Shown here in pieces: positions 42,909-46,297 of a DNA stretch of 64,000 nucleotides. Under the pieces are notes generated by a model that saw only the letters and a list, made by a program, of their open reading frames with translations, searched no databases and was not told where the DNA came from. The translations under genes and the position numbers were made by a program. This DNA is from Algihabitans albus (GTDB lineage: Bacteria > Pseudomonadota > Alphaproteobacteria > Kiloniellales > DSM-21159), in assembly GCF_003572205.1 (NCBI RefSeq), contig NZ_QXNY01000002.1, positions 62,001-126,000 of the forward strand. The letters run 5' to 3'. Numbering within the stretch: the stretch's first letter is position 1; every line of letters begins with the position of its first letter.

Positions 42909-43811
42909 GTGCGGGTTCGGCTGATCGTCTCGCCCTACGATTCCGGGCAGCATCTCCAGCGCATGGGCTGCGGGCCGGACCGCCTGCTGGACCGCGGCCT
43001 CGTCTCGGCGCTCGAAGCCGCCGGGCATGTTCTCCAGTTGTATCGCATTGAATTGGATGACGGATTTCCCAGCGAGATCGCGGGGGGCTTCGCCGCCATG
43101 CGTGCCGTGGCGAGAGAGGTCCGGTCGGCCGTCGAGTCAGGCGCATTCCCGGTCGTTCTCGCCGGCAACTGCAATACGACGGTCGGTGCCGTCGCTGGTC
43201 TCGGCGTGGAACGAACGGGGGTTCTGTGGCTCGACGCGCACGGCGATATCAATACGCCGGACAGCACTGCGACCGGTTTCCTGGACGGTATGGGCGTCGC
43301 CATCCTGACGGGGCATGCCTGGACCACCGTCGCACGGTCCATTCCCGGTTTCGCGCCCCTGCGCGAGGACTGCATGATCCTGGCCGGGACGCGGGATCTG
43401 GATGCCGAGGAAGAAGCGCTGCTGGCGCGTTCGGGCGTGATCCAGGTCGGCGAGGCCGCGATCCGGGTTGCCGGAGCGGAAGCGGCGCTCGGCACGGCGC
43501 TTGCGGATTTGGCGGGGCGCGTCGGAACCTTGCATCTGCATTTGGATCTGGACGTGCACGATCCGGACTTCGCGCCGGCCAATCACTTTCGGCCGCCGGG
43601 CGGTCTCTCAACGGCCGAGGTCGCCGCCTGCATCGAGACCGCCGTGGATCTTCTGCCGCTGGGATCTCTGGCCGTGACAGCCTACGATCCCTCGGTGGAT
43701 CCGACCGGGATCACCGCAGATGCCGCGGTCACCTACATCTGCCGGAGTGTCGAGGCCGCGGCTCGACCCTCGGCGACGGGCGTTCACACGGCGTTATCTG
43801 AACGTGAGTAA
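42909..43811 (+). CDS. Arginase-like hydrolase
   Basis: A 300-residue member of the arginase/agmatinase fold. Metal motifs: LDAHGD (D109, H111, D113) and HLDLDVHDP (D213, D215). The first motif is AGNCNTT (C88) where classical arginases have GGDH, so a metal-binding histidine is replaced by cysteine, as in a known arginase-like subgroup. The start is GTG at 42909 behind a G-rich ribosome site. It follows aapP by 110 bases and may act on amino acids or guanidino compounds brought in by Aap. The substrate is unknown. Confidence 0.82.
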   Translation: MRVRLIVSPYDSGQHLQRMGCGPDRLLDRGLVSALEAAGHVLQLYRIELDDGFPSEIAGGFAAMRAVAREVRSAVESGAFPVVLAGNCNTTVGAVAGLGVERTGVLWLDAHGDINTPDSTATGFLDGMGVAILTGHAWTTVARSIPGFAPLREDCMILAGTRDLDAEEEALLARSGVIQVGEAAIRVAGAEAALGTALADLAGRVGTLHLHLDLDVHDPDFAPANHFRPPGGLSTAEVAACIETAVDLLPLGSLAVTAYDPSVDPTGITADAAVTYICRSVEAAARPSATGVHTALSERE

Positions 43812-43969
43812 GACCGCTTGCTCTGGCGCCGACGCCGATAGTCCGAGGGCGTGCGGTCGAAGCGTTGGCGGAACAGCTTCGAGAAGTGTGGGAAGTTCAC
43901 GAAGCCGTTGCGTAAGGCGATTTCGCTGACCGAGGTCTTGGGGAACTCCTCGAGGACGGCGGCGGTCAT
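43784..43969 (-). pseudogene. AraC-family regulator, 3' fragment
   Basis: Only the last helix-turn-helix of an AraC regulator survives: SVSEIALRNGFVNFPHFSKLFRQRFDRTPSDYRRR, then a basic tail. A complete AraC protein has about 300 residues; here about 60 remain. The frame continues to 44713, but that part translates to sequence without family resemblance because it is antisense to nitrilase and aldoxime-dehydratase fragments. The 3' end overlaps the arginase-like gene by 28 bases. Homology stops at about 43966, where the nitrilase fragment begins on the other strand. Confidence 0.8.
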
Positions 43970-43975
43970 GCGCGC

Positions 43976-44206
43976 ATCTACGGTCCCGACGGTGCGCCTC
44001 TGGCCGAAGATGCGGAAGGGCTGATCGTCGCGGATGTCGATCTCGCCATGATCGCCTACGCGAAGTCCTCGGCGGATCCGGTCGGTCACCATTCCCGTCC
44101 GGATGTCGTTCGGCTCCTGTTCAACGCCAATCCGGCTCCTATTGTAATGCCGTTTCCCGAGGGCCTGGACCTTGCGGCCTCGGGAAACGGCGGCGCCTGG
44201 CGATGA
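43976..44206 (+). pseudogene. Nitrilase, 3' fragment
   Basis: Read from 43976, the plus strand gives IYGPDGAPLAEDAEG, LIVADVDLAMIAYAKSSADP and VGHHSRPDVVRLLFNANPAP, ending at a TGA at 44204-44206. This is the C-terminal part of an aliphatic-type nitrilase; the catalytic Glu-Lys-Cys region and about three quarters of the protein are missing. Too short and start-less to be functional. It abuts the AraC fragment head to head. Confidence 0.78.
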
Positions 44207-44254
44207 CAGCGTCGAGGAGGCGGAGAATGCCGCTAGGCCCGAGGACCCGGCTCG

Positions 44255-44764
44255 ATGGTACCCTTGCGCATGCCTCCCGACTGGAATTCTCCGATTCCGG
44301 CCTGGAGCTCGACCTTTGCGGATGCCGTCGAACAGGTGTCCCTCTGCATCATCAGGTCCGGACAGGACTGGAGCTCTACAGAAGGGTTGCAACGCAGAGA
44401 GTATCTCGAGCGGATGGAGCCGGTGCTCGAAGCCGGTATGGCCTTCCTGCGCGACAGGGGCCAGGAGGTAAACTGCCACGCCGGCCGGTACATGCGGGAA
44501 ATCGGCCGTGACGGTGCCGGCACCGACCGCAGCCTCGGCCCCGCCTACTTCCGTACCATGGCGGACCTGGAAGGTTGGGCGGAGACCCATCCGACGCACC
44601 TGGCCATCTTCAAGACCTTTCTGGGCATCGCGCCGAAGTACGGGGCGAACCTGCAACTGCGGCCGTGGCACGAGGTATCGCTGCTGCCGGCGGGCAACCA
44701 GTTCGGCGAACATGCGAATTGCGCTGCCGGGACGGGGCTTCTGGGTGGTCTCGCGAGTGGCTGA
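44255..44764 (+). pseudogene. Aldoxime dehydratase, internally deleted
   Basis: The 169-codon frame starts with a segment like the N-terminus of haem aldoxime dehydratases (RMPPDWNSPIPAW). It then jumps to the C-terminal half: CIIRSGQDW, GMAFLRDRGQEVNCHAGRYMR, THPTHLAIFKTF and WHEVSLLPAGNQ. H115 corresponds to the haem-ligand His and H139 to the catalytic His of OxdA, but the central part with the catalytic Arg is gone. The family length is about 350. It may still be translated from the ATG at 44255, but is unlikely to be an active enzyme. Confidence 0.75.
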
Positions 44765-44791: not shown

Positions 44792-46297
44792 TTAACCCGC
44801 CCGCGCGAACCTCAAGGCCTCTTCGGCGGCGCGCATCAGGGCGCGCGCCTTGGCCACGGATTCCTGATGCTCGGCTTCCGGGTCGCTGTCTGCCACCACG
44901 CCGCCGCCGGCCTGGACGTACATGGTGCCGTCCTTGATCAGGGCGGTGCGCAGGGCGATGCAGGTGTCCATGTCGCCGCCGGCGCCGAAGTAGCCGACCG
45001 CGCCGGCGTAGAGGCCGCGCCGTTCCGGCTCCAGTTCGTCGATGATCTCCATCGCCCGGACCTTCGGGGCGCCCGATACCGTCCCGGCCGGAAAGCCGGC
45101 GACCAGCGCGTCCAGTGCGTCCAGGCCGGGGCGCAGTTTGCCCTCAACGGTGGAGCTGATGTGCATGACGTGGCTGTAGTTCTCGATCACGAACTTGGCC
45201 GGCACCTCCATCGTGCCGATCTGCGCCACTCGGCCGACGTCGTTCCGTCCCAGGTCGAGCAGCATCAGATGTTCGGCCAGTTCCTTGGGATCGTTCAGCA
45301 GATCTTCGGCGAGGTCCCGGTCTTCGTCCGGCGTGGCGCCGCGCCGGCGTGTCCCGGCGAGGGGCCTCAGCGTGACCGTCTCGCCGCGCAGCCGGACCAG
45401 CACTTCCGGCGAGGAGCCGACGGCGGCGAAGTCGCCCAGATCCATGAAGAAGAGAAAGGGCGAGGGGTTGAGGCGGCGCAGCGCACGATAGAGTGCGAAA
45501 GGCGGCAGCTTGAACGGCAGGTGAAAGCGCTGCGAGGGGACCACCTGGAAAATGTCGCCCGCCGCGATGTAGTCCTTGGCCCGCGCGACCATGTCGCGGA
45601 AGGCCTCCGGCGCCATGTTCGACTGCGGCGCCGGCAGTACGTCCGCCGTTTCGGCGCGTTCGCGGCGATAGGGCAGGGAGCGGCCGAAGTCTTCGACCGC
45701 TTCGGCCAGGCGTTCGCGCGCCAGATCGTAGGCGGCCGACGCGTCGACGCCCGGACGTGGCCAGACCGGCGTGATGACGGTGACCACGTCCTCGACCCGG
45801 TCGAACACCGCCGTCACGGTCGGTCGCACGAAAAGGGCATCGGGGATGCCCAGCACGTCTTTGTTGTCGTCGGGCAGCCGTTCCATCAGTCGGACGGCAT
45901 CGTAGCCCATGTAGCCGATCAGGTTGGACGCCATCGGCGGCAATTCGGGCGGCAGATCGATCCGGCTTTCCTCGATCAGCGCACGCAGAGAGTCCAGCGG
46001 CGCTCCCTCGAGGGGGACGAAGGCGGTCGGATCGCTGCGGGCCTGACGATTGATTTCCGTCGCATCGCGCCGGCAGCGCCAGATGACGTCCGGCTTCATG
46101 GTGATAAAGGAGTAGCGTCCGATGGTGGCGCCACCCTCGACCGATTCGAACAGGAAGGAGAAAGGGCGATTGTCGGTCAGCTTCAGAAAGGCCGAAACCG
46201 GCGTTTCGAGATCGGCGATCAGCCGGGTAAAGACCACCTGCGGCCGATTGGCCCGATAGGCGCTGCGAAAGACGTCGGCCTCTGGCGTGCAGAGCAT
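44792..46297 (-). CDS. trpE: Anthranilate synthase component I
   Basis: A 501-residue chorismate-utilising enzyme that makes anthranilate with the TrpG amidotransferase. The N-terminal regulatory domain has ETPVSAFLKL and FLFESVEGG. The catalytic domain contains FQVVPSQRF, PSPFLFFMDLGDFAAVGSSPEVLV, RPLAGTRRRG, LGRNDVGRV, SHVMHISSTVEGKL and AGAVGYF. It starts 5 bases after the ppiD stop. No trpG follows in this window; a decayed aldoxime/nitrilase region lies downstream instead. Confidence 0.96.
   Translation of the reverse strand: MLCTPEADVFRSAYRANRPQVVFTRLIADLETPVSAFLKLTDNRPFSFLFESVEGGATIGRYSFITMKPDVIWRCRRDATEINRQARSDPTAFVPLEGAPLDSLRALIEESRIDLPPELPPMASNLIGYMGYDAVRLMERLPDDNKDVLGIPDALFVRPTVTAVFDRVEDVVTVITPVWPRPGVDASAAYDLARERLAEAVEDFGRSLPYRRERAETADVLPAPQSNMAPEAFRDMVARAKDYIAAGDIFQVVPSQRFHLPFKLPPFALYRALRRLNPSPFLFFMDLGDFAAVGSSPEVLVRLRGETVTLRPLAGTRRRGATPDEDRDLAEDLLNDPKELAEHLMLLDLGRNDVGRVAQIGTMEVPAKFVIENYSHVMHISSTVEGKLRPGLDALDALVAGFPAGTVSGAPKVRAMEIIDELEPERRGLYAGAVGYFGAGGDMDTCIALRTALIKDGTMYVQAGGGVVADSDPEAEHQESVAKARALMRAAEEALRFARAG

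Follow-up and report, generated by a model that had tools for sequence, protein, structure and literature searches.

We find that positions 43784 to 44764 of the analyzed stretch of Algihabitans albus DNA (64,000 nucleotides in all, hereafter the window) are very likely a pseudogene remnant of a cluster in which an AraC-family regulator gene (araC) faces away from a nitrilase-aldoxime dehydratase (oxd) gene pair, shaped by one deletion of about 1.7 to 1.8 kb and another of about 0.5 kb. We observe directly the identities of the pieces, the divergent arrangement of the genes in intact relatives, the junction at which the AraC and nitrilase pieces abut, and the missing middle of oxd. The join between araC and the nitrilase gene is most simply explained by a single deletion, with the locus as a whole needing at least two large deletions, since oxd carries a separate internal one.

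Gene remnants between two intact flanking genes

The locus lies on a contig of 1.11 Mb in a draft genome of 4.68 Mb and 19 contigs. The remnant sits between two convergent, intact genes: on the left, an arginase-family gene on the plus strand (42909 to 43811; PF00491 positions 3 to 275 of 280, E = 2.4e-29) and, on the right, a minus-strand open reading frame (ORF; 44792 to 46297) that we take, from its sequence, to be trpE. The last 28 bases of the arginase gene overlap the AraC piece, tail to tail. Within the window, intact AraC, nitrilase, and aldoxime dehydratase (Oxd) queries match only the stretches described here. Internal stops are absent from the three gene pieces; recent or GC-rich decay would explain this, and so would some remaining constraint.

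The AraC piece (43784 to 43945, minus strand) comprises the second half of the helix-turn-helix (HTH) region and the C-terminal tail of the regulator. Instead of a complete regulator, we observe PF12833 (HTH_18) positions 40 to 80 of 80 (E = 2.7e-10; PF00165, E = 8e-7) as all that remains of that domain. The nitrilase piece (43943 to 44206, plus strand) holds 87 codons and a stop, compared with about 340 codons in a full gene; read from 43943, it matches the solved nitrilase 6zby from residue 1 (phmmer, E = 4.8e-20), and it shows 61% identity to the nitrilase of a related locus, L028 (E = 1.25e-28, in a small database). Its first residues, ELLEDGGGHARIYGPDG at 43943, correspond to EFLKAGGGHARIYGPDG in two Sneathiella loci. 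Judged by these alignments, the matches of both the AraC and the nitrilase pieces are beyond chance. The outer bounds given in the earlier note on this DNA hold, with the AraC frame ending at 43784 on the minus strand in the ORF listing and the nitrilase frame stopping at 44206 on the plus strand.

The nitrilase remnant begins at the equivalent of residue 241 in a protein of about 342, and the catalytic N-terminal part is absent. The CCWEHLQP stretch, present in most aligned relatives and presumably the site of the catalytic Cys, falls in the missing part. In addition, the remnant lacks four residues near 43994 to 44000 that are present in all seven aligned relatives, with the 6zby alignment showing the same gap. 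A 12-bp slippage loss is possible there, because the nitrilase of Sneathiella locus L030 carries a PLAE-PLAE tandem at this site.

Gene order in intact relatives

A scan of genome contigs with two short peptide patterns and an Oxd alignment gave 14 named oxd loci, which are a sample and not a full census. In 11 of these, AraC lies upstream of and divergent from the nitrilase-oxd pair, at a spacing of 157 to 284 bp from the nitrilase gene (between match ends) and with oxd following the nitrilase gene; the order and orientation of the remnant agree with all 11. The divergent ancestral pair that the earlier note had proposed is therefore well founded, and the comparison that it had called for, a search for relatives with another order or orientation, returned none among the AraC-bearing loci. 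The other three loci (L026, L032, and L035), in which no AraC match was found, all begin at a contig edge and are less informative: L026 has the nitrilase-oxd pair, with 1.48 kb upstream of the nitrilase gene free of an AraC match, L032 starts inside the nitrilase gene, and L035 shows only oxd. In Grimontia celer (L025), about 1 kb separates the nitrilase gene from oxd (L025:3341-4410).

The closest Oxd found is that of Nitratireductor sp. XY-223 (L024), with 68% identity over residues 29 to 167 of the window ORF. This locus has the divergent order and supplies the top match of the AraC piece, but unlike the remnant it is intact, retaining 1707 bp at the araC-nitrilase join and 483 bp of oxd that are lost here. 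Searches with the Oxd piece recovered no close intact copy from 61 genomes of the order or from a class sample of 385 genomes, each with four matching genomes (host included), and a distant DNA search of a plasmid collection with the remnant gave two weak matches, covering 9% and 13% of the query.

This arrangement is in line with published aldoxime-nitrile clusters of Bacillus sp. OxB-1 and Bradyrhizobium, for which excerpts of two papers describe an AraC-type regulator (NitR), a nitrilase, and Oxd (PMC8955678, PMC4342420). The three gene families are alike, and in both cases the regulator and the nitrilase gene lie upstream of oxd; in the window, by contrast, each of the three genes is truncated and nothing is left of the intergenic region. 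Regulator orientation is not given in the excerpted text of these papers, and the divergence is taken from the 11 loci above.

The araC-nitrilase junction

Nitrilase homology extends left to 43943. AraC homology is certain to 43933 and plausible to 43945, a limit set by a phenylalanine that stands four positions ahead of S-[IV]-S-E and that the Sneathiella AraCs also have, and local matches to cluster AraCs start at fragment residues 7 to 14, which puts the farthest reach at 43957. Given these limits, the two homologies meet or overlap slightly, with no foreign DNA between them, and the junction is best placed at 43934 to 43945, with an outer bound at 43957. The earlier note had described a minus-strand AraC 3' fragment abutting a plus-strand nitrilase 3' fragment at 43967 to 43976; the abutting fragments stand, but the homologies meet to the left of that position. 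The locus thus has the features of a deletion remnant, with homologous ends that abut, no foreign insert, and intact copies in relatives.

Between equivalent points, 1707 to 1816 bp are absent at this junction relative to 7 of the 11 AraC-bearing loci (alignments and deletion sizes refer to L024, L025, and L027 to L031, with the more distant L033, L034, L036, and L037 excluded). Most of AraC, the between-gene region, and about 240 nitrilase codons are lost. One deletion of about 1.7 to 1.8 kb, with its ends inside araC and the nitrilase gene, would have removed the 5' part of each together with the promoter region that separated them. This is the reading of the earlier note, and it is supported; that the loss came in a single deletion is an argument from parsimony. 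Neither an intermediate nor a close intact copy is known, and nested deletions would leave an identical junction.

A second deletion in oxd

We observe that oxd is broken as well, which was absent from the earlier reading of the sequence. An N-terminal leader (44264 to 44341, plus strand), recognized in alignments and by a separate Oxd query match, is fused in frame to the C-terminal half (44342 to 44764, plus strand). The leader LRMPPDWNSPIPAWSSTFADAVEQVS (LRMPPDWNSPIPAWSS...VS) lines up with the beginning of intact Oxds, and LCIIRSGQDW, with which the C-terminal half begins, follows it directly. Of the PF13816 domain, positions 173 to 310 of 310 alone are present (E = 1.5e-40; 3a15, E = 7.4e-33). 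When the L024 Oxd is used as a query in the host genome, only its residues 6 to 34 (59% identity, E = 1.8e-5) and 194 to 331 are matched, adjacent and in one frame, with no match to the middle of the protein anywhere in that genome. The internal loss amounts to 483 to 504 bp against seven loci, and the leader would have been fused to the C-terminal half by a second deletion, in frame and about 0.5 kb long.

Recombination between similar stretches is only weakly suggested as the source of this deletion. The break points are alike in some relatives (VSMCIIGCQ versus ENLCIIRSGQ in Grimontia, L025), with 13 to 22 of 42 bases matching at the break ends across seven loci (most in L025), a count taken on intact copies that have diverged. 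Ranked by end-to-end similarity among 229 to 243 positions, the true break comes 2nd to 13th in these seven loci.

The nitrilase-oxd spacer (44207 to 44263, plus strand) holds a probable frame break ahead of the conserved leader. An in-frame stop at 44234 to 44236 stands just before the first in-frame start of the Oxd ORF, ATG at 44255, and, with the spacer read against relatives, the leader appears to be frame-broken from the preceding sequence.

One deletion or several at the araC-nitrilase join

Loss at this locus was evidently repeated, since it bears further lesions, and smaller losses would have occurred besides the two large deletions. The internal loss in oxd, the four missing nitrilase residues, and the probable frame break accordingly lend some credit to a less likely but serious alternative, namely, that successive deletions removed the 5' regions of araC and the nitrilase gene and that the present junction marks only the last of them. 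Against this, there is one junction, no island of araC or nitrilase 5' sequence is left over in the window, and a single event suffices.

Origin of the AraC piece and integrity of the locus

The AraC piece was used as a query in nine genomes, seven with the cluster and two of congeners. In all seven cluster-bearing genomes the AraC of the cluster itself comes out as the top match (E = 9.4e-11 to 8.3e-8), which assigns the piece to the aldoxime-nitrile cluster; an unrelated AraC neighbour was rejected on this ground. Top and runner-up E values are 9.4e-11 and 1.4e-8 in G441, 8.7e-9 and 8.3e-8 in G443, and 1.4e-8 and 1.5e-7 in G444, and in three of the seven genomes the runner-up trails by only one to two orders of magnitude, the piece being a short query. 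The top matches in the two congeners, in neither of which Oxd was found, have E values of 2.4e-5 and 3.8e-5.

These comparisons bear on the possibility that an inversion, translocation, or insertion placed an unrelated AraC fragment beside the nitrilase fragment, which we consider very improbable. AraC-family genes are common, with several paralogues matching the piece per genome, and the contents of the arginase-trpE slot vary within the genus; the piece nevertheless has the cluster AraC as its nearest match in every cluster-bearing genome searched and lies at the expected place and in the expected orientation. Furthermore, the missing part of AraC, represented by a 277-residue L024 query, has no match in the host genome. 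The same query matches all four of the other cluster-bearing genomes searched at 46 to 60% identity, and among the congeners it matches nothing in G002 and two sequences in G001 at 24 to 25% identity, which we take as paralogues. A nitrilase 5' query finds only matches of 42% and 34% in the host genome, in other open frames and likewise taken as paralogues. On the basis of the host genome queries with the AraC, nitrilase 5', and Oxd parts, a move of the 5' halves to another site was rejected. The host genome holds another nitrilase-like open frame (356 aa) that is 42% identical to the N-terminal part of the cluster nitrilase (G000:C2:234940-235506).

An assembly artefact at the junction is most unlikely: the genome is a draft, but the locus lies inside its long contig and is damaged at several places besides the junction.

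Coding potential of the remaining reading frames

It is equally hard to credit that the stretch still yields a product, either from a 309-codon minus-strand ORF (43784 to 44713) or from a shortened Oxd (169-codon ORF, 44255 to 44764). Both frames are open, and third-position GC is nearly equal in the antisense portion of the 309-codon ORF (0.69) and in the nitrilase piece (0.70), so that it does not tell the two apart. However, of the 49 window ORFs with 300 or more codons, 17 have 80% or more of their length within a longer ORF (the 309-codon ORF is not among these 17), the 309-codon ORF runs, in its upstream part, antisense to the pieces of oxd and the nitrilase gene, an in-frame stop stands just ahead of the Oxd ORF start, and the intergenic region of the cluster is absent. 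Expression of the antisense ORF was rejected, its open frame being weak evidence of a gene where long spurious ORFs are common; codon-position GC spoke neither way. This ORF runs into the AraC HTH and could be miscalled as an AraC gene.

There is also a very slim chance that the join in oxd (...VS|LCIIRSGQ...), between look-alike points near the beginnings of the enzyme's two parts, yields a mini-Oxd, in frame and about 166 residues long, still capable of folding and heme binding; if true, this would be a natural removal of half an enzyme and not pure decay.

Variability of the slot and significance of the remnant

Among the points in favour of decay of the cluster by deletion is that the arginase-trpE slot differs within the genus. 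In congener G001 the slot is empty, since the arginase and trpE ORF ends overlap by four bases (L022:6935-6938). In congener G002 it is filled by three other ORFs (L023:4235-9072), which from their sequences we take to be a LuxR-like gene, a long gene for a repetitive surface-like protein, and one smaller ORF. The arginase match in G002 (L023:9072-9943) is split over two open frames, pointing to either a frame-broken gene or an assembly error. Since slot contents differ and Oxd is found in 4 of 58 relatives (host genome included), we infer that the cluster was either gained in the host lineage or lost in the congeners, with its patchiness favouring gain.

The between-gene region and the regulator are gone, as are about 240 of some 340 nitrilase codons, which leaves the pathway encoded at the locus, on sequence grounds, very probably dead. 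The remnant resembles pseudogenes of the ordinary bacterial kind that deletion has shortened: it has suffered several losses, with small damage to the frame, and its slot is variable. It differs from them only in that a divergent pair has neatly lost its two 5' portions. It is ordinary decay of a known cluster type, and its wider consequence is small. For annotators, neither the 309-codon minus-strand ORF nor the 169-codon Oxd ORF should be taken as a functional gene without further evidence. For the organism, the remnant shows that an accessory pathway for aldoximes and nitriles was lost from the variable slot that two housekeeping genes enclose, with a divergent regulator-operon pair probably silenced in one step.
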